64,000 bases of DNA from Streptomyces seoulensis (lineage in GTDB: Bacteria > Actinomycetota > Actinomycetes > Streptomycetales > Streptomycetaceae). Where the stretch lies: NCBI RefSeq assembly GCF_004328625.1, contig NZ_CP032229.1:1054001-1118000 (forward strand). The letters are read 5' to 3'. Within the stretch, counting starts at the first letter, position 1, and each line of letters begins with the position of its first letter. Shown piece by piece: positions 6,697 through 53,411 of the stretch. The position numbers and the translations under genes were made by a program. The notes under the pieces were generated by a model. The model was not told the DNA's origin. It worked only from the letters and a program-made list of their open reading frames with translations, and did no database searches.

Positions 6697-7326
6697 TCAG
6701 GTCAGGGCGCCGGACCGGGCGAGGGAGTGCAGGAAGTGCATCAGCGTCAGCAGGGTGTCCCGGCTGGAGGCGCGGCGGCGTACGTCGCACTCGACGATCG
6801 GGATCTCCGGCGCCAGGTCGAGCGCGCCGCGCAGTTCCTCGATGGGGTGCCGGGGAGCGTCCGGGAAGGAGTTGACGGCGACGATGAAGGGCACGCCGCG
6901 TTCCTCCAGCCGGCCCATGACGTCGAAACTGACGTCCAGCCGGCGGGTGTCGACCAGGACGACCGCGCCGAGCGCGCCCTCGAAGAGGCGGTTCCACAGG
7001 AACCAGAAGCGTTCCTGGCCGGGGGTGCCGAAGAGGTAGAGCACCAGTTTCCCGGTGATGCTGATACGGCCGAAGTCCATGGCCACGGTGGTGGCGGTCT
7101 TGGTCTCGGAGCCGTAGTCGTCGTCGATGCCGATACCGGCCTGGGTCATGGTCTCCTCGGTGGTCAGCGGTCTGATCTCGCTGACCGAGCCGACCATGGT
7201 GGTCTTGCCGACGCCGAAGCCGCCCACGATCACGATCTTCACCGCGGCCTGCGCGGTCTGCGGGAGCCGTTCCCCGGTGCGCGGGCCGGGGATCGCGGGG
7301 ACGGCGTCAGAGGCGTTGGAGTCCAT
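6697..7326 (-). CDS. cvnD: Conservon small GTPase (cvnD, MglA/Rab-like ATP/GTP-binding protein)
   Basis: A 209-aa Ras-like GTPase of a conservon signalling complex that is thought to resemble a eukaryotic G-protein/receptor assembly at the membrane. The P-loop is GGFGVGKTT (about residues 35-43), the switch II region is LFGTPGQERFWFLW, and the specificity motif is near FIVAVNSFPD. The Q in GQER is present as in active Ras-like proteins. The ATG at 7326 overlaps the end of cvnC by 20 bases, implying coupled translation. A 20-residue disordered N-terminal leader precedes the fold. Confidence 0.93.
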   Translation of the reverse strand: MDSNASDAVPAIPGPRTGERLPQTAQAAVKIVIVGGFGVGKTTMVGSVSEIRPLTTEETMTQAGIGIDDDYGSETKTATTVAMDFGRISITGKLVLYLFGTPGQERFWFLWNRLFEGALGAVVLVDTRRLDVSFDVMGRLEERGVPFIVAVNSFPDAPRHPIEELRGALDLAPEIPIVECDVRRRASSRDTLLTLMHFLHSLARSGALT

Positions 7327-7717
7327 GCATCACCGCTTCGAGGAGGGTCCGGTCGGGGAGCGCCTGGCGGACGATCGGGGCGCGGGCCTGCACCAGGTCG
7401 GCGCCGATCAGCTCGGTGAGCAGCGCGGTCGTCGCGCTGAACGGCAGGTCGAGGTAGGCCGAGAGTTCGGCCACGGACAGGGGCGAGGAGCAGAGCCGGA
7501 GCACGGCCGCCTGTTCGGGGGCGCTGGTCGGCGGGGGCGCCGAGCGCGCCACGATCAGGGTGACCAGATCGAGCTGCGCCCGGCCGCCCTCGTGCAGTCC
7601 GGTGACGGCGTACAGCCGCTCGGGGCTGCCCTCCTCCGCCTCCTCGCCCGCGTCCGGGGCTACGGGCGGCGGGGAGGGCGCCTCCTGCGGCAGGCGCCGT
7701 TTGCGGCGCGGGGTCAT
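7307..7717 (-). CDS. cvnC: Conservon DUF742 protein (cvnC)
   Basis: A 136-aa DUF742 protein, a winged-helix-like small protein found in cvn operons. The start MTPRRKRRLPQ is basic, followed by a Pro/Glu linker and the DUF742 core LYAVTGLHEGGRAQLDLVTLIV, then AVLRLCSSPLSVAELSAYLDLPFSATTALLTELIGADLV, which reads as a helix-turn-helix type fold. The ATG at 7717 overlaps the cvnB stop (ATGA). The molecular role is unsettled; conservon members are reported to interact with one another. Confidence 0.92.
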   Translation of the reverse strand: MTPRRKRRLPQEAPSPPPVAPDAGEEAEEGSPERLYAVTGLHEGGRAQLDLVTLIVARSAPPPTSAPEQAAVLRLCSSPLSVAELSAYLDLPFSATTALLTELIGADLVQARAPIVRQALPDRTLLEAVMHGLQRL

Positions 7718-44661: not shown

Positions 44662-46200
<1,539 letters not shown>

Positions 46201-46240
46201 CCCGCCAGGTCGAGCTCCGACGAGGAGTGAAGTACCCGAC

Positions 46241-47860
46241 ATGACCAGTCCCACCACCCTGCAGTCCGTACCTGCCCTGGGCACGCACCCGGCCTCCGGC
46301 TCCAACCCGAGCCGCGCCGAGACCCGGGAGCAGCTCGCACGGGCGTCGTACGACCTCCTAGTGATCGGCGGCGGCATCCTGGGCATCTCCACCGCCTGGC
46401 ACGCCGCGCAGTCCGGGCTCAGGGTGGCGCTGGTCGACGCCGGCGACTTCGCCGGCGCCACCTCCTCCGCCTCCTCCAAGCTGCTGCACGGCGGCCTGCG
46501 CTACCTCCAGACCGGCGCGGTGAAGCTGGTCGCGGAGAACCACTTCGAACGGCGCGCGGTCTCCCGCCAGGTGGCCCCCCACCTGGCGAACCCGCTCACC
46601 TTCTACCTCCCGGTGTACAAGGGCGGTCCGCACAGCGCGGCCAAGCTCGGCGCGGGCGTCTTCGCCTACTCCGCGCTCTCCGCCTTCGGCGACGGCGTGG
46701 GACATCTGCTCTCCCCCGCCAAGGCCGCGCAGGACGTGCCCGAGCTGCGCACCGACAACCTCAAGGCCGTGGCCGTGTACGGCGACGACCAGATGAACGA
46801 CGCCCGCATGGCGCTGATGACAGTCCGCGCGGCCGTCGACGCGGGCGCGGTCGTGCTGAACCACGCCGCGGTCACCGGGCTGCGCACCACGCGCGGCCGG
46901 GTCACCGGCGCCGAGCTGAAGGACCGGCTCACCGGAGAGGAGTTCGGCGTCGACGCCCGCCTGGTGCTGAACGCGACCGGCCCCTGGGTGGACCACCTGC
47001 GCCGGATGGAGGACCCGCACGCGGCGCCCTCGATCCGTCTGTCCAAGGGCGCGCACCTGGTCCTGAAGCGCACCGCCCCCTGGAAGGCGGCGCTGGCCAC
47101 CCCGATCGACAAGTACCGCATCACGTTCGCCCTGCCCTGGGAGGACATGCTGCTGCTCGGCACCACCGACGAGGTGTACGAGGGCGACCCGGCGGACGTG
47201 TCCGTCACCGAGTCGGACATATCCCAGATCCTGGACGAGGCCGCGTTCTCCGTCCGGGACCAGCAGCTCCAGCGGGACCTGATCACCTACTCGTTCGCCG
47301 GGCTGCGGGTGCTGCCGGGCGGGCCCGGTGACACCGCGAAGGCCAAGCGGGAGACCGTGGTCACCGAGGGTCCGGGCGGGATGCTCTCGGTGGCGGGCGG
47401 CAAGTGGACCACCTTCCGGCACATCGGCCGGACCGTGCTGAAGAAGCTGGAGGAGCTGCCGGGCCGGCCGCTCGGCGACGACTTCGAGCCGGTGTCGGAG
47501 CTGCCCAAGCGGCTGCCGCTGCCCGGTGTCGCCAACCCGCGCGCGGTCGAGCACCGGCTGCTGGTGGACCACCCGGCGCCCGGCCCCCGCATGGGCGCCG
47601 ACACCGCCCGCCACCTGGCGACCCACTACGGCTCGCTGGCCTTCGACATCGCCCGCCTGGCCAACGAGCACCCGGAGCTGGCCGAGCGGGTCCACCCCGA
47701 CGCGCCGGAGATCTGGGCGCAGGTCGTCTGGGCCCGCGACCACGAGTGGGCCGAGACGGAGGACGACGTGCTGCGCCGCCGTACCACCCTCACCATCCGC
47801 GGCCTGGCCACGGACGAGGTACGCGCGCAGGTGCGTGAGGTGCTCGACAAGAAGCGGTGA
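46241..47860 (+). CDS. glpD: Aerobic glycerol-3-phosphate dehydrogenase GlpD (gylB)
   Basis: A 539-aa membrane-associated flavoenzyme that oxidises glycerol-3-phosphate to dihydroxyacetone phosphate and passes electrons to quinone. The FAD-binding motif is DLLVIGGGILGISTAWHAAQSGLRVALVDAGDFAGATSSASSKLLHGGLRYLQ (GxGxxG and the GSK-like segment), with the late domain DAO-C region FDIARLANEHPELAERVHPDAPEIWAQVVWA. ATG 46241 is 40 bases after glpK; GAGGAG lies 13 bases upstream, a little long. It ends the operon; a hairpin follows. Confidence 0.96.
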   Translation: MTSPTTLQSVPALGTHPASGSNPSRAETREQLARASYDLLVIGGGILGISTAWHAAQSGLRVALVDAGDFAGATSSASSKLLHGGLRYLQTGAVKLVAENHFERRAVSRQVAPHLANPLTFYLPVYKGGPHSAAKLGAGVFAYSALSAFGDGVGHLLSPAKAAQDVPELRTDNLKAVAVYGDDQMNDARMALMTVRAAVDAGAVVLNHAAVTGLRTTRGRVTGAELKDRLTGEEFGVDARLVLNATGPWVDHLRRMEDPHAAPSIRLSKGAHLVLKRTAPWKAALATPIDKYRITFALPWEDMLLLGTTDEVYEGDPADVSVTESDISQILDEAAFSVRDQQLQRDLITYSFAGLRVLPGGPGDTAKAKRETVVTEGPGGMLSVAGGKWTTFRHIGRTVLKKLEELPGRPLGDDFEPVSELPKRLPLPGVANPRAVEHRLLVDHPAPGPRMGADTARHLATHYGSLAFDIARLANEHPELAERVHPDAPEIWAQVVWARDHEWAETEDDVLRRRTTLTIRGLATDEVRAQVREVLDKKR

Positions 47861-47884
47861 CGGCAGGCCGCGACAGGCGTGCTC

Positions 47885-47916
47885 AGGGGCGGTTCCGCGG
47901 TGGCGGGACCGCCCCT
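47885..47916 (+). terminator. Hairpin terminator after the glycerol operon
   Basis: A 12-bp stem (AGGGGCGGTTCC with GGGACCGCCCCT, one G-T pair) and an 8-base loop, 24 bases past the glpD stop. It separates glpD from the NACHT gene, whose promoter must lie in 47917-48054. Confidence 0.78.
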
Positions 47917-48067
47917 CGCGCGTGTCCGCGCCTCCATCCGCCCCCGAATACTTCCGCGCGCTCCCTCGAACGTGTTTCAAAGTGGGCGTTTACCACCCTG
48001 TCTACGGCTAAAACGGATCTTTCCGACAGCAGGAGCGGGGCGAGGCCCAGGTGCGGGGAGCGGTCAT

Positions 48068-51031
48068 ATGCGAGGCGGTTGGCACACGGCACGGGCGCGG
48101 CGGCGGCTCGGCCTCGGCGCGTGCGGTGTCGCGCTCGTCGCGCTCACGGCGGTTCTGCGGTTCTGGTGGCTGGACGCGGCGGTCGCGGGCGTCCTGATCT
48201 CGGCGATCGGCGCGTTCGTGTCGGTGGTGGCCCTGGTGGCGGACATCCTGCGCGGCGACGCCGACCCGCCGCTGCGCTCGGCGGCCGAGGACCGGTGCCG
48301 GGCGGCGGACGCGCTGGCCGAGGTGGTCCGGGACCAGTGGGCGGCGGAGGCACGGTTCCGGCGGCTGCGGGACCCGATGCCGATCGAGGTGCGCTGGGCC
48401 CCGGCCGACCGGCGGCTGGCGGACCATCCGGAGAACGTCCGCCGCGACCGGCCGCTGCCCGCCCCGCGCGACGCGGCGGTGGAGCACGCCCCCGACGACT
48501 TCCCGGTGCCGCCCGGCCGCCGGGTGGTGGTGCTGGGCGGTCCGGGCTCCGGCAAGAGCGTGCTGGCGCTGCGCTTCGTCCTCGGCCGGCTCGCCGTACG
48601 GGCGCCGGGCGGGCCGGTGCCGGTGATCGTCCCGCTGGCCGGCTGGGACCCCTGGCGCACCCCGCTGCGCGACTGGCTCGCCGGGCGGCTGGCCGCCGAC
48701 TATCCCCCGCTGGCCGCCCCCGACGGCCGGCGCACGCTCGCCCGCGCCCTGCTGGACTCGGGGCTGGTCATGCCGGTGCTGGACGGCTTCGACGAGCTGG
48801 CCCGCCCCGGCCGCGCGGAGGCCGTACGGCGGGTCAACGCCGAGCTGGACGACGACCTGCCGCTGCTGCTGACCAGCCGGAAGGAGGCGTGGGCGACGGC
48901 GGTGGCCGAGGGGGACGTGCTCACCGCCGCCGAGGTGGTCGAGCTGCTCCCGCTGGACCTGGAGCAGGCCGCCGCCCACCTGGAACGCACCGCCCGGCCG
49001 CTGGCGACGGAGGACGGGGAGCGGGCCACGGTGTGGACGCCGGTCCTGCGGGAGCTGCGCGAGCGGCCCGGGTCGGCCCCGGCGCGGGCGCTCACCACTC
49101 CCCTGATGGTCTCGCTGGCCCGCGCGGTCTACGGCGACACCTCCGGCGACCCCTCGGAGCTGCTGGACGTCAAGCGCTTCCCGACGGTGGCCTCGGTCGA
49201 GGAGCATCTGCTCGGGGCGTTCGTACCGGCCGCGTTCGCCGGTTCCGGGCCCGGTGCCGCCTCGGACGCGGAGCGCAGGCTCACCGTGCTGGCGCGGGCG
49301 TTGCAGCACCGCGACACCGGGCGGCTGGCCTGGTGGGAGCTGGAGTCGATGCTGCCGGCCGCGCTCCGGGTGTACACGCCGGGGCTGCTGGCGCTGGCGG
49401 TGCAGGCCCTGCTGGTGCTGCCGGTGATGGTGGCGCGGGTGGTGAGCGGGCTGGCCGGGACGGAGGACGTGGTCTCGGTGGGTGCCACGCTGTTCGGCCA
49501 GACCCTCGGGTTCGCCTTCGGCGCCGCCTGTCTGCTGCCGCGTGACGGGGGCCTGCCGGGCAGACGGTTCATCCTGCGGCAGACGCTGCTGACCGCGCTG
49601 GTGAGCGGGCTGCTGTGGGCGGCGTTCGCCTGCACCGACGACCTCCGGTTCGGCTTCCGGTACGGCACGCTGACCGACGGCTGGATGCCGGACCTGCTCG
49701 GCGGGTGTCTGTTCTCGCTGCTGTTCACCCTGTTCTTCGGCATCGCGGGCCTCCCCCGGCGCCCGGCGCCGCTGAGCCTGCCGTGGAGCGGTGCGGCGGG
49801 CCGGGCGGTCGCCCGGGTGCTGGGCGCGGCCCTGCTGCTGGGCGGCGCGGGTTCGGCGGGCTCGGTGCTGCTGGACTCCTCGCGCGACCCCTGGACCGCG
49901 CTGATCGGCACCACCTGCATGGCGGCGGGCACGGCGCTGCTGGTGAGCGGCACCCACCGGCAGGACGGCCCCCATCCGGGCCGCGCGGGCCGGGTCGGCC
50001 AGCGATTCGCGGCGGGCGCCGTACGCGGCACCGCGGCCGCCCTGCTGATCGGCATCACCGCCTGCACGACCGCCGGACTGGCCGCGGTCGGGGTGACCGT
50101 GCTGAAGTCGGCCGGCGTGGAGGACCTCGCGGGCCGGCGCATCGACGGCTGGCGGTTCGCGTCGCGGGACGGGGTCCGTACGGCGGTCACCACGCGCCCG
50201 GTGCGCGGCAGGATGCTGATCCCGGGCGAAGGCGCCCGCCCCATCGCCTACCCCGGCGACGCGGAGCCGCCCGACTGCACGATCCCGCTGCTGAAGGACC
50301 GTAGGTGCCGCCCCTTCATCTCCCGGCGGACGGCGTTCGAGTCGCGGGACGGGGTCGTGGTGGTGCGGCTGGCCCTCGCCGGGGGCGCGGCCGAGGCGTA
50401 CCCGGCGAATCTGCGCTCGGTGCTGCCCGAGGAAGCCCGTGGCTGGCTCACCCAGGGCCCGGCCACCGGGCTGCTGGTCCGCTGTCTGCCGCCGTTCGTG
50501 GCGAGCGGGGTGCTGATCGGGCTGGTGGGCGGCTGCGTGTGCGGGGTGTACCGGGCGCTGAGCGTGCCGTCGGACATCATGCGGGCGACCGGCCCCGGTT
50601 CGTCGCTGCGTACGGACCGGACGGCGTCGTTCACCCGGGCCGGGGTGGTGGCTCTGCTGGTGGCGCTGGTGTGTGTGCCGGTGATGGTGCTGCCCGGCGA
50701 CTGGGGCGGGCTGGCGCATGTCGGGACCCGGCTGTGGCTGCCGCTGGGGGCCGCGGCGCTGGCGCTGAGCGCGTGGGGGCGGTTCGCGGTGGCGCGGGTG
50801 TGGCTGGCGGCGACCGGACGGCTGCCGTGGCGGCTGATGGCGTTCCTGGAGGACGCCCACCGGCGGGGTGTGCTGCGCAGGTCGGGCGCGTGCTTCGAGT
50901 TCCGGCACCTGCGGCTCCAGTCCCATCTGGCGGGCGGCGGGGCGGAGGTGCGGGGACAGGGCGGTCCGGTGGACGGCGCCTGGGAGCAGGCTCCGCTGCG
51001 GGGTGTTCCGGGCCGGGGTTCGGGGCAGTGA
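48068..51031 (+). CDS. Membrane-embedded NACHT-type NTPase, probable signalling or defence protein
   Basis: A 987-aa STAND-like protein. Two N-terminal helices (about 15-35 and 38-58) are followed by a cytoplasmic NACHT module: Walker A VVVLGGPGSGKSVLAL (157-164), Walker B MPVLDGFDELA (about 234-245), sensor-1 LLLTSRKEAW (266-275) and an Ala/Leu-rich helical part. From about residue 436 to 905 many hydrophobic segments follow, interrupted by an approximately 120-residue soluble section (680-800). It ends RRSGACFEFRHLRLQSHL, a tail seen in other Streptomyces NACHT membrane proteins. ATG 48068 has GGGGAG 7 bases upstream. It lies between glpD and parJ, where S. coelicolor, from memory, has nothing. 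Role inferred; no repeat sensor is seen. Confidence 0.85.
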   Translation: MRGGWHTARARRRLGLGACGVALVALTAVLRFWWLDAAVAGVLISAIGAFVSVVALVADILRGDADPPLRSAAEDRCRAADALAEVVRDQWAAEARFRRLRDPMPIEVRWAPADRRLADHPENVRRDRPLPAPRDAAVEHAPDDFPVPPGRRVVVLGGPGSGKSVLALRFVLGRLAVRAPGGPVPVIVPLAGWDPWRTPLRDWLAGRLAADYPPLAAPDGRRTLARALLDSGLVMPVLDGFDELARPGRAEAVRRVNAELDDDLPLLLTSRKEAWATAVAEGDVLTAAEVVELLPLDLEQAAAHLERTARPLATEDGERATVWTPVLRELRERPGSAPARALTTPLMVSLARAVYGDTSGDPSELLDVKRFPTVASVEEHLLGAFVPAAFAGSGPGAASDAERRLTVLARALQHRDTGRLAWWELESMLPAALRVYTPGLLALAVQALLVLPVMVARVVSGLAGTEDVVSVGATLFGQTLGFAFGAACLLPRDGGLPGRRFILRQTLLTALVSGLLWAAFACTDDLRFGFRYGTLTDGWMPDLLGGCLFSLLFTLFFGIAGLPRRPAPLSLPWSGAAGRAVARVLGAALLLGGAGSAGSVLLDSSRDPWTALIGTTCMAAGTALLVSGTHRQDGPHPGRAGRVGQRFAAGAVRGTAAALLIGITACTTAGLAAVGVTVLKSAGVEDLAGRRIDGWRFASRDGVRTAVTTRPVRGRMLIPGEGARPIAYPGDAEPPDCTIPLLKDRRCRPFISRRTAFESRDGVVVVRLALAGGAAEAYPANLRSVLPEEARGWLTQGPATGLLVRCLPPFVASGVLIGLVGGCVCGVYRALSVPSDIMRATGPGSSLRTDRTASFTRAGVVALLVALVCVPVMVLPGDWGGLAHVGTRLWLPLGAAALALSAWGRFAVARVWLAATGRLPWRLMAFLEDAHRRGVLRRSGACFEFRHLRLQSHLAGGGAEVRGQGGPVDGAWEQAPLRGVPGRGSGQ

Positions 51032-51037
51032 TCCGTT

Positions 51038-51058
51038 CAGCCCCTTGTGAGGGGGCTG
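51038..51058 (+). terminator. Small hairpin after the NACHT gene
   Basis: CAGCCCC paired with GGGGCTG, loop of 7 bases, directly after the stop codon. Together with 47885-47916 it makes the NACHT gene a separate transcription unit. Confidence 0.6.
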
Positions 51059-51125
51059 CTGAGGCTCCTGTCGGACGCCGTAAGGTTGGGTGGTCAGGCG
51101 AGAGCACGTCGGAAGGAGGCACTGG

Positions 51126-52118
51126 GTGATCGAGCTGGAGGGTGTTCCCGAGCTGATCGACCCAGTCATGGTGGCCGCGTTCGAGGGCTGGAACGATGCC
51201 GGTGACGCCGCCTCCACGGCGGTCGCGCATCTGGAACGCGAGTGGAAGGGCGAGGTGTTCGCGGCGCTGGACGCCGAGGACTACTACGACTTCCAGGTGA
51301 ACCGCCCCACGGTCTTCATGGAAGGCGGCGTACGCAAGATCACCTGGCCGACGACCCGGCTGTCGGTGGTCCGCGTCGGCGGGGACAAGCCCCGTGACCT
51401 GGTGCTGGTGCGCGGCATCGAGCCGTCGATGCGCTGGCGCTCGTTCTGCAACGAACTGCTGGGCTTCGCCCATGAGCTGGGCGTGGAGCTGGTGGTGATC
51501 CTGGGCGCGCTGCTCGGCGACACCCCGCACACGCGTCCGGTCCCGGTCAGCGGGGTCACCTCGGACGGTGACCTGGCGCGCCGGATGAACCTGGAGGAGA
51601 CCAAGTACGAGGGCCCGACGGGCATCGTCGGGGTGCTCCAGGAGGCGTGCACGCACGCCGGGGTGCCCGCGGTGTCGCTGTGGGCCGCGGTGCCTCACTA
51701 CGTCTCCCAGCCGCCCAACCCCAAGGCCACGCTGGCGCTGCTGAACCGGCTGGAGGACCTGCTGGACCTGCGGCTGCCGCAGGGCGAGCTGCCCGAGGAC
51801 GCGCGTGCCTGGCAGACGGGCGTGGACCAGCTGGCGGCTGAGGACAGCGAGGTCGCGGAGTACGTGCAGACGCTGGAGGAGGCCCGCGACACCGCCGAAC
51901 TGCCCGAGGCGTCCGGCGAGGCCATCGCGCGGGAGTTCGAGCGGTATCTGCGGCGCCGGGACGTCGGCGGGCCGGGCGGCCACGCCACGGCGGACGGCTC
52001 GGACGGCGGGCCGTACCGGCGGGACGCGCCGAGCGGCCGTACCCGCCCGCCCAAGCCCCCGAAGCCGGAGGCGCCGGGCGCGGCGGAGGGCGACGAGCCG
52101 GAGGGCTCGGAGGACTGA
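51126..52118 (+). CDS. parJ: PAC2-family protein ParJ-like
   Basis: A 330-aa PAC2 (proteasome assembly chaperone 2-like) protein. The family pattern is VIELEGVPELIDPVMVAAFEGWNDAGDAASTAV...DYYDFQVNRP and VVRVGGDKPRDLVLVRGIEPSMRWRSF, then ELLGFAHELGVELVVILGALLGDTPHTRPVPV. By synteny it matches SCO1662, ParJ, reported to bind the ParA chromosome-segregation ATPase and control its polymerisation during sporulation. The last 50 residues are Gly/Pro-rich. GTG 51126 has AAGGAGG 6 bases upstream and is preferred to an upstream in-frame ATG. Convergent with mshC across a strong terminator. Confidence 0.88.
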   Translation: MIELEGVPELIDPVMVAAFEGWNDAGDAASTAVAHLEREWKGEVFAALDAEDYYDFQVNRPTVFMEGGVRKITWPTTRLSVVRVGGDKPRDLVLVRGIEPSMRWRSFCNELLGFAHELGVELVVILGALLGDTPHTRPVPVSGVTSDGDLARRMNLEETKYEGPTGIVGVLQEACTHAGVPAVSLWAAVPHYVSQPPNPKATLALLNRLEDLLDLRLPQGELPEDARAWQTGVDQLAAEDSEVAEYVQTLEEARDTAELPEASGEAIAREFERYLRRRDVGGPGGHATADGSDGGPYRRDAPSGRTRPPKPPKPEAPGAAEGDEPEGSED

Positions 52119-52121
52119 ACG

Positions 52122-52157
52122 AAGTGGGGCGGTACCCGGCCGGATACCGCCCCACTT
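52122..52157. terminator. Bidirectional terminator between parJ and mshC
   Basis: A 13-bp perfect stem (AAGTGGGGCGGTA / TACCGCCCCACTT) with a 10-base loop, 3 bases past the parJ stop; both flanks have short T-runs in the sense of each converging gene (TTTCTT on the plus strand). It serves both genes. Confidence 0.85.
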
Positions 52158-52181
52158 TCTTGGGTCAGCCCTTGTGTCAGC

Positions 52182-53411
52182 TCAGAGGGCCACGCCGAGC
52201 AGCGCGTCCACGGTGCGGCTGACCAGGCCGGGGGCGCCGATGTCGGTGCCGCCCTCGGCCTCCTGGCGGGCCGCCCAGCGGTCCACGGCCGCGAGCGCGG
52301 CGGGCGCGTCGAGGTCGTTCGCCAGGGCCTCGCGGACCTCCTCCACCAGCGCGTCGGCCGACGGGCCGTCCGGGCGGGAGACGGCGGCGCGCCAGCGGCC
52401 GAGGCGGTCCACGGCGTCCTGGAGCACCTGGTCGGTCCACTCCCAGTCGGAGCGGTAGTGGTGGGAGTGCAGGGCGAGCCGGATGGCGGCCGGGTCGACG
52501 CCGTCGCGGCGCAGCGCGGAGACGAAGACGAGGTTGCCCTTCGACTTGGACATCTTCTCGCCGTCGAGGCCGACCATGCCGGCATGTACGTACGCCTTGG
52601 CCATGGGGAACTCGCCGGTGAGCACCTGGGCGTGGGAGGCGCCCATCTCGTGGTGCGGGAAGGCGAGGTCGGAGCCGCCGCCCTGGACGTCGAAGGTCAT
52701 GCCCAGGTGGTCCAGGGCGATGGCGACGCACTCGATGTGCCAGCCGGGGCGGCCCCGGCCGAGCGTGCCGCCGTCCCAGCTCGGCTCGCCCTCGCGGGCC
52801 GCGAGCCACAGCATCGGGTCGAGCGGGTTCTTCTTGCCGGGCCGGTCCGGGTCGCCGCCGCGTTCGGCGGAGAGCACGCGCATGGCGGCGGCGTCCAGGC
52901 GGGAGACCTGGCCGAAGTGCGGGTCGGCGTCGACGGAGAAGTAGACGTCCCCGTCCAGGTCGTAGGCCGCGCCCAGTTCCCGCAGGCGCTCCACGAGCGG
53001 GACGATGCCGGGTATGGCCTCGACGGCGCCTATGTAGTGCTGCGGCGGGAGCATCCGCAGGGCGGTCATGTCCTCGCGGAACAGGGTGGTCTCCTGCACC
53101 GCGAGGTCGGCCCAGTCGACGCCGTCGCGGGTCGCGCGCTCCAGCAGCGGGTCGTCGACGTCGGTGACGTTCTGGACGTAGTGGACCTGCCGCTTGGTGT
53201 CGAGCCACACGCGCTGGACGAGGTCGAACGCGTTGTAGGTCGCCGCGTGACCCATGTGGGTCGCGTCGTACGGCGTGATGCCGCAGACGTAGATCCGGGC
53301 GACGGGACCGGGGGCGAGGGTGACCGGACCGTCGGTCGCGGTGTCGTGAATCCTCAGGTCGCGGCCCTGACCAGGCAGGGCGGGGACCTCGGAAGCGGGC
53401 CAGGCATGCAT
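52182..53411 (-). CDS. mshC: Cysteine--1-D-myo-inosityl 2-amino-2-deoxy-alpha-D-glucopyranoside ligase MshC
   Basis: A 409-aa ligase that joins cysteine to GlcN-inositol in mycothiol synthesis, related to cysteinyl-tRNA synthetase. Class I synthetase signatures are present: [10 protein letters not shown] (HIGH-like) and [10 protein letters not shown] (KMSKS), and zinc-binding context at [25 protein letters not shown] and [10 protein letters not shown] 53411 ([15 protein letters not shown]) matches known MshC; an ATG two codons upstream is also possible. The gene starts about 110 bases downstream of the SCO1664-like gene, in the same orientation. Confidence 0.97.

Follow-up and report, generated by a model that had tools for sequence, protein, structure and literature searches.

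A membrane-embedded NACHT protein with a possibly split winged helix in the glpD-parJ interval of Streptomyces seoulensis

The general view of NLR-type switches is that they do their sensing in the cytoplasm. What kind of protein, then, is a NACHT ATPase with a heavily transmembrane C-terminal half? The question is raised by a gene lying between glpD and parJ in Streptomyces seoulensis, in a stretch of 64,000 nucleotides (contig NZ_CP032229.1, positions 1,054,001 to 1,118,000; hereafter the window). An initial annotation had presented this gene as a separate unit between two hairpins and as the best candidate for an undescribed, perhaps antiphage, system. We propose tentatively, at slightly below even confidence, that the protein is a membrane-embedded NLR-like (STAND/NACHT) receptor, with a winged helix split by its membrane part and an N-terminal transmembrane (TM) hairpin as output. 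The data point to a membrane protein with an intact ATPase core and a tail that is probably winged-helix-like, and to a family in which outer and N-terminal modules are swapped. The architecture is read from sequence alone, and the receptor function is what we infer from it.

An intact NACHT core under purifying selection

The gene (Table 1) is preceded by a GGGGAG motif at 48055-48060 and its translation contains no internal stop. Pfam detected a NACHT domain at residues 151-307 (E 3.9e-5), with a score of 24 bits, just under the cut-off of 26.7 bits; in a six-frame search of the genome, the NACHT model gave 28.4 bits for the same gene, which is over the cut-off. The initial annotation was therefore right in placing an intact NACHT gene between glpD and parJ. 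Walker A (GGPGSGKS, residues 157-164), Walker B (LDGFDEL, 238-244) and the TSR of sensor-1 (269-271) are all present. We aligned the protein with 72 of 120 listed database proteins (relatives 41-92% identical). Among these 73 sequences, no variation is seen at G157, G160, G162, D239, G240, D242, E243 or R271, and 72 have K163, so that the motifs are intact as claimed and the gene cannot be dismissed on the ground that relatives do not conserve its Walker residues. The protein shows the hallmarks of the NACHT/STAND class, i.e. Walker A, Walker B with its acidic DE, the TSR sensor-1 arginine and a conserved P after the core. P345, L346, W422 and W423 are invariant in segment 311-432, and so are, in 73 of 73 sequences, E944, F945 and H947 of the C-terminal tail (FEFRHLRLQ), the conservation of which had also been pointed out.

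A database search gave 452 proteins matching the window protein at E<=1e-3, and many of them already bear the name 'NACHT domain-containing protein', so the protein does not qualify as an undescribed system. The gene is under purifying selection: the overall ratio of nonsynonymous to synonymous substitution (dN/dS) was 0.23 against an orthologue with 83% identity (G151) and 0.32-0.51 against four others. Because of the 452 matches and this selection, we regard the gene as more than a chance reading frame. The family search found one copy in the 6.43-Mb genome. The NACHT model found three more places, one strong, a leucine-rich-repeat (LRR) protein of the NACHT-LRR type (L143/L176), and two below the cut-off. 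When compared with solved structures, the profile of the family alignment retrieved only four small-GTPase sequences, via Walker A, and a canonical NACHT-LRR profile retrieved 110 sequences, mostly LRR proteins among the 60 listed.

Predicted membrane topology

From hydropathy averaged over the 73 sequences, 12 TMs were predicted, and every second loop, on the inner side, is rich in K/R throughout. Two TMs precede NACHT, which is predicted to be cytoplasmic, and seven follow it; then come an outer domain of 136 residues, three more TMs and a cytoplasmic tail. The prediction bears out the membrane-heavy C-terminal half seen in the initial annotation, as well as its being unlike the antiphage bNACHT proteins, the latter in so far as the literature was available in part. 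The N-terminal helices noted there turned out to be a predicted TM hairpin (residues 14-58) followed by a conserved pre-NACHT linker. No segment between Walker A and residue 432 was as strong as the 12 TMs: those found there scored 0.45-0.59, and the TMs 0.03-0.31. In 19 short forms, six TMs are predicted and the tail is again inside. Two cysteines of the ectodomain, C737 and C747, are present in 34 of 34 close orthologues, and in 10 and 11 of the 39 members of a second subgroup.

No Pfam match was found for the ectodomain, for the tail and TM pieces or for the N-terminus of the window protein. The hairpin occupies the slot where relatives carry Xre-type helix-turn-helix (HTH) or trypsin-like domains. 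A two-TM hairpin is likewise found in the SLATT effectors (SMODS/SLOG), and SLATT_1 was weakly matched by one of nine relatives tested (L242, 22.9 bits for a cut-off of 26.3). As the N-terminus of the window protein is devoid of Pfam match, we did not retain a SLATT identity for its hairpin.

The tail as the probable end of a split winged helix

Two blocks of the family profile aligned with the canonical NACHT-LRR profile in hhalign. Residues 151-365 aligned with positions 287-511 (E 8e-9, probability 96%), and residues 931-957 with the winged-helix FxH region at 594-621 (E 3e-4 and score 30.7 for the piece 916-958). These blocks are about 82 residues apart in L176 and about 565 in the window protein. 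The tail piece 905-960 had a score of 30.2, as compared with 23.3 for the best of 100 column shuffles, and the linker, TM and ectodomain pieces gave E values of 0.3-0.5 with the canonical profile. Further evidence was obtained by running the family profile over 296 actinobacterial genomes: it matched one STAND-type protein, BTAD/AAA-like by inspection, only at positions 910-958 and in register with YDFSH (22.4 bits, E 4.7e-5 for one genome). Because of the hhalign block, the shuffle control, the STAND-type match and the WD40 domains that follow the tail in relatives (see below), we read the tail as the C-terminal end of the winged-helix domain (WHD). Together with the predicted topology, these comparisons indicate that about 480 residues, made up of ten predicted TMs and the outer domain, would be inserted inside the WHD of the NACHT module. 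In STAND proteins, a histidine of the WHD contacts the bound ADP.

The tail is also the best conserved of the parts compared. Mean identity between the two long-form subgroups was 0.74 for residues 916-957 and 0.63 for NACHT, fell to 0.52 in TM10-12, 0.33 in TM3-9 and 0.26 in the ectodomain, and was 0.15 over the final 30 residues. The dN/dS values against G151 ranked similarly (tail 0.09, TM10-12 0.11, NACHT 0.15, TM3-9 0.21, ectodomain 0.35). In the other pairs the trend was less clear, TM3-9 being as relaxed as the ectodomain in several.

Several observations weigh against a split WHD. Over 296 genomes, the E value of the STAND-type match becomes about 0.014. The match of the tail extends over some 27 residues at a probability of 28-40%. 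When the insert columns were omitted, the alignment of NACHT stopped short of the tail, which was recovered in a second alignment of its own (probability 10%, E 0.003). No score was obtained for the piece 311-432 by itself (E 0.37), residues 366-432 were not aligned to the WHD by hhalign, and a plain profile search scored canonical tails below zero bits or not at all. The dN/dS contrasts vary, the tail value with G109 (0.34) being not lower than that of NACHT (0.33). Finally, the split WHD is a reading of sequence comparisons. The low probabilities of the tail alignments, together with the lack of Pfam matches for the tail and TM pieces, speak for another explanation, namely that the tail is some unrelated, conserved cytoplasmic motif and that a membrane domain has been joined to a NACHT ATPase, the winged helix being absent or degenerate. 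We consider this very unlikely in view of the shuffle control, the STAND-type match, the WD40 domains that five relatives carry downstream of the tail, and a tail conservation equal to or above that of the NACHT core. We therefore keep the split winged helix as our reading.

A locus of another actinobacterial family (L181) contains an ORF (open reading frame; 6811-7458) in which a short hydrophobic stretch precedes the tail motif and no in-frame NACHT is present; it is possibly a decayed relative.

A family with swapped modules

ORFs were assigned to the family if they contained Walker A and Walker B, a tail pattern more than 350 residues after Walker A and at least four hydrophobic segments. 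This filter was passed by 74 rows, one of which (L140) duplicates another (L128), leaving 73 distinct ORFs. Over most loci, 85 ORFs had both Walker motifs: 73 passed, one had fewer than four segments and 11 lacked the tail pattern. The Pfam scan excluded L106, the ORF of which is open at the 5' end, and the tree and the class counts (72 rows) excluded both L106 and L140. The number of segments between NACHT and the tail was six in 43 and ten in 11 of the distinct ORFs, and it was even in 59 of the 73; the 14 members with odd counts, by what is a crude rule, add to the points against our reading.

The 72 N-termini were classed as TM hairpin (31), HTH (24), trypsin-like (4) and other (13), the hairpin calls being crude enough to put the near-identical L095 and L215 in different classes. 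Pfam found HTH_31 in 24 and Trypsin_2 in 4 of them. A trypsin-like protease domain lies N-terminal to the membrane NACHT core in L096, where it exceeds the Pfam cut-off, and in L201, L202 and L204, where it was found with a two-sequence profile. Ten family ORFs extend more than 150 residues past the tail and five of these carry WD40 there, as in canonical NACHT-WD40 proteins. A TM is predicted between the tail and WD40 in all five, with the charge pattern of eight aligned; in L241, L244, L245, L246 and L250, WD40 is predicted to be extracytoplasmic, after a TM that follows the winged-helix-like tail.

In a tree of the NACHT region (72 rows; a quick tree, with SH-aLRT support only), the trypsin-like members formed one group and the WD40 members another. 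Thirteen of the 14 members with an ectodomain insert need two changes, and all 14 lie within a clade of 17 rows. TM hairpins without an extra domain were scattered. At the family level, the domain layout is that of an NLR-like tripartite receptor, with a variable N-terminal module, NACHT and a putative C-terminal sensor. In two members (L234 and L238), a GTFxGPVVMxGRV motif precedes NACHT, which we take to resemble bacterial amyloid signalling motifs. A GPVVM-type pattern, presumably representing the BASS amyloid motif, occurred in 2 of the 74 rows and not in the window protein, and was not retained as a family feature.

The family is large and mostly, not exclusively, found in Streptomyces. 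A match at E<=1e-3 was present in 117 of 199 Streptomyces genomes (four candidates scored per genome), and a close orthologue (>=67% identity) in only five of these, including the window's own genome. Among the 296 actinobacterial genomes (two candidates scored per genome), 14 had a match; eight of these were Streptomyces and the others gave mostly short or weak pieces. Matches were also found in 34 plasmid records, 28 from Streptomyces and six from Streptantibioticus, Embleya, Streptosporangium, Nonomuraea or Kitasatospora, none of them covering 80% of the query. Presence is sporadic, with paralogues and plasmid relatives, and we count this pattern, like the swapped N-termini, in favour of the proposed receptor.

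This distribution bears on a different role, that of a membrane signalling receptor for development or metabolism, in which the same switch would respond to an envelope or extracellular cue and would recruit partners or control expression rather than kill. The concentration in Streptomyces, the Xre-type HTH in a third of the N-termini (24/72), the predicted outer WD40 or other domains and the lack of recurrent defence neighbours (see below) agree with such a role. We find it rather unlikely, since the clade of the window protein has no HTH, since sporadic presence and a deletion in a sister strain would be unusual for a core regulator, and since trypsin-like modules fit effector deployment better.

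Phage and defence context

According to the part of PMC12169576 that was available, bacterial NACHT proteins protect against phages. An antiphage protein of the bNACHT/Avs kind would detect phage products in the cytoplasm, its membrane part being merely an effector. The sporadic presence of the family and its relatives on plasmids would suit this explanation, as would the known antiphage NACHT proteins. We tried to find a match to a described antiphage NACHT model with PADLOC and NCBIfam and obtained only weak NTPase-type matches. PADLOC assigned the window protein to no family, with only weak matches of the Walker A type, and the NCBIfam antiphage EruA model gave 14 bits for a cut-off of 1000 bits. 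No recurrent defence or partner gene was found among 99 neighbours of 12 family loci. These neighbours matched 14 PADLOC families, each in at most three genes, with single matches including mad1, mad2 and ZorD; the idea of a defence island or partner gene was abandoned on that account. A phage collection contained no match to the family.

The PADLOC result, the lack of recurrent neighbours and the lack of a match in the phage collection count against our own reading, and they leave the antiphage role put forward initially without support. A cytoplasmic bNACHT/Avs-like sensor seems to us improbable, given also that no cytoplasmic repeat domain follows the NACHT module of the window protein and that the WD40 of relatives lies beyond an extra predicted TM. 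We continue with the membrane-embedded receptor.

The glpD-parJ interval

The gene order, which the initial annotation likened to that of the S. coelicolor core, was confirmed with different degrees of certainty. Upstream are found an IclR-type regulator (models below cut-off), a MIP channel, GlpK and glycerol-3-phosphate dehydrogenase, and mshC lies downstream of parJ on the opposite strand. The MIP channel, GlpK and MshC exceed NCBIfam cut-offs. The glpD product falls short of the cut-offs of the glycerol-3-phosphate dehydrogenase models that it matches. For the product of parJ, a name that comes from the initial annotation, the matches are to proteasome-assembly-chaperone models and are weak. 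No Rfam element reached the gathering threshold in 46000-52500.

We compared this interval in 80 named Streptomyces parJ loci, which are the best 80 of a larger set and hence nearer relatives. A glpD was detectable upstream in 69 of them, and the other 11 were not counted. A full-length NACHT gene lies between glpD and parJ in two of the 69 intervals (S. zinciresistens and S. humi), so the gene is rare at this site; presence here in nearly all Streptomyces would have made it unremarkable. One further interval, in S. griseoluteus JCM 4765 (L003 7556-8011), holds a deletion remnant, in which most of the NACHT gene is gone and its 3' end persists along with the DNA upstream of it. This remnant documents loss of the gene. 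An intact relative with 94% identity (P0003) is listed under S. griseoluteus in the protein database, and because of these two records the presence of the gene may vary within that species. S. bauhiniae (L002) was rejected as a second remnant, the matching DNA being the parJ leader common to many loci.

The gene most often met in the interval encodes a regulator of the GntR/FadR type (41 interval ORFs in its cluster, the type being taken from NCBIfam matches below cut-off). S. humi and S. zinciresistens have both this regulator and the NACHT gene, in the order glpD-NACHT-regulator-parJ. The regulator is absent from the interval of the window (47861-51126). Six close orthologues were compared with their flanking DNA (those of the window, G151, G183, G109, S. 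humi and S. zinciresistens), four of which adjoin glpD. In G183, parJ was not found within about 7 kb beyond the NACHT gene, and the 18-19 kb around it in G151 and G109 yielded no glpD and no parJ. Outside the glp set, no gene cluster recurred beside the NACHT gene. One cluster (ABC-transporter ATPase by Pfam in L111) was found within four of the family loci.

Both hairpins proposed to delimit the gene are predicted to fold (-33.9 kcal/mol after glpD and -14.8 kcal/mol before parJ), and neither belongs to it. In the DNA before parJ, the match reached the start of parJ in 68 of the 80 loci and extended back to at least 51003 in 44. NACHT sequence is present in only three of the 80, and hence in at most three of the 44. 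For this reason, the last 10 or so codons of the NACHT gene, its stop and the second hairpin are parJ-leader DNA. A strict pattern for that hairpin was found in only three of 15 loci tested. A hairpin-bounded NACHT cassette was thus discarded, the first hairpin belonging to glpD and the second to the parJ leader. In 44 aligned Streptomyces sequences, including the window, the leader contains the conserved blocks GGGGCAGTGATCCG and ACGCCGTAAGGTT. It is perhaps a promoter or leader of parJ, with the NACHT stop codon inside.

Table 1. Features of the NACHT gene and of its flanking DNA in the window (residue numbers in parentheses)
Feature	Position	Strand	Basis
NACHT gene, intact, 987 aa	48068-51031	+	ORF translation, Pfam, alignment
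Predicted N-terminal TM hairpin (TM1 14-32, TM2 40-58)	48107-48241	+	Alignment-averaged hydropathy
Pre-NACHT linker (59-148), DPxPLxVRW, common to short forms	48242-48511	+	Alignment
NACHT NTPase core (149-310)	48512-48997	+	Pfam, alignment, hhalign
Walker A; Walker B; TSR	48536-48559; 48779-48799; 48872-48880	+	Within NACHT core
Helical part and probable N-terminal half of winged helix (311-432)	48998-49363	+	151-365 aligned; 366-432 assigned by position only
Predicted TM3-TM9 (433-673), first part of membrane insertion	49364-50086	+	Alignment-averaged hydropathy
Predicted extracytoplasmic domain (674-809, 136 aa)	50087-50494	+	Hydropathy, alignment
Predicted TM10-TM12 (810-915), conserved and with matches in short forms	50495-50812	+	Hydropathy, alignment
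Cytoplasmic tail (916-957), read as C-terminal half of winged helix	50813-50938	+	hhalign, STAND-type profile match, WD40 order
FxH motif with invariant H947	50897-50920	+	Within tail
Terminator-like hairpin after glpD	47886-47915	+	Fold; persists in deleted sister locus
Hairpin in parJ leader	51038-51058	+	Fold; leader alignment
Conserved parJ leader DNA, overlapped by last ~10 NACHT codons	50999-51127	+	Alignment

Discussion

The window protein shares with canonical bacterial NACHT proteins (bNACHT25, L176) the Walker A and B motifs, the helical part and the presence of an N-terminal module, and its tail resembles the FxH end of their winged helix. It differs from them by its membrane insertion, and from bNACHT25 also by its N-terminus, which in that protein consists of a nuclease and an NCH1 domain, as stated in the accessible portion of PMC12169576.

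KAP P-loop NTPases also have TM segments inserted within their NTPase module. According to the title of a 2004 Genome Biology paper, their insertion reportedly lies inside the NTPase domain. In the window protein, by contrast, the insertion appears to interrupt the winged helix and to leave the preceding NACHT core intact. The Pfam matches included no KAP model, and no TM insertion was found within the P-loop domain, where only weak segments occur. Like NLR and NACHT-WD40 proteins, the family combines a variable N-terminal module, NACHT and a winged-helix-like end, followed by WD40 in one clade of relatives; in the latter, WD40 comes after an extra predicted TM and would be extracytoplasmic, whereas in the window protein the ectodomain is an insertion and WD40 is lacking.

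A membrane NACHT protein with a split winged helix is not described in those parts of PMC7159879, PMC8195603, PMC12169576, PMC13092281, PMC10907252, PMC7889193, PMC12261475 and PMC3501461 that were available, and may be described elsewhere, most subscription papers lying outside the literature covered. A term search of PMC10482375 found no NACHT, STAND, NLR, Avs or transmembrane. As far as these partial sources go, the new point is the architecture, the protein itself being already widely annotated.

We propose that, at rest, the WHD would be held by the membrane bundle, with ADP locked in place. A cue perceived at the outer face or in the membrane itself would shift TM10-12 and pull the tail off the nucleotide. 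Exchange of ADP for ATP could then be followed by a ring-like assembly that would bring the N-terminal modules together. Clustering of the TM hairpins might cause local perturbation or permeabilisation of the membrane, a cell-suicide type of response in defence or in self/non-self conflict. In relatives, HTH or protease modules may give other outputs from the same switch. Membrane perturbation appears the most likely output for the window protein because its N-terminal module is a TM hairpin. Two points argue the other way: the role of the hairpin as an effector is only deduced, the N-terminus of the window protein having no Pfam match, and HTH-bearing relatives also fit a regulatory role.

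Taken as a whole, the family is possibly, though we hold this with some doubt, a Streptomyces radiation of 'inside-out' NLRs, in which a winged helix split by a membrane bundle, outer sensors and swappable inner effectors would couple recognition outside the cell to the ADP-sensing histidine. The family offers a natural set of effectors and sensors swapped on one core, in which K163, D242, H947 and the module boundaries can be tested. If the proposed architecture is true, the nucleotide-sensing winged helix would be physically joined to a membrane bundle and an outer domain, and the family would illustrate how signals can be read by a STAND switch from across a membrane.

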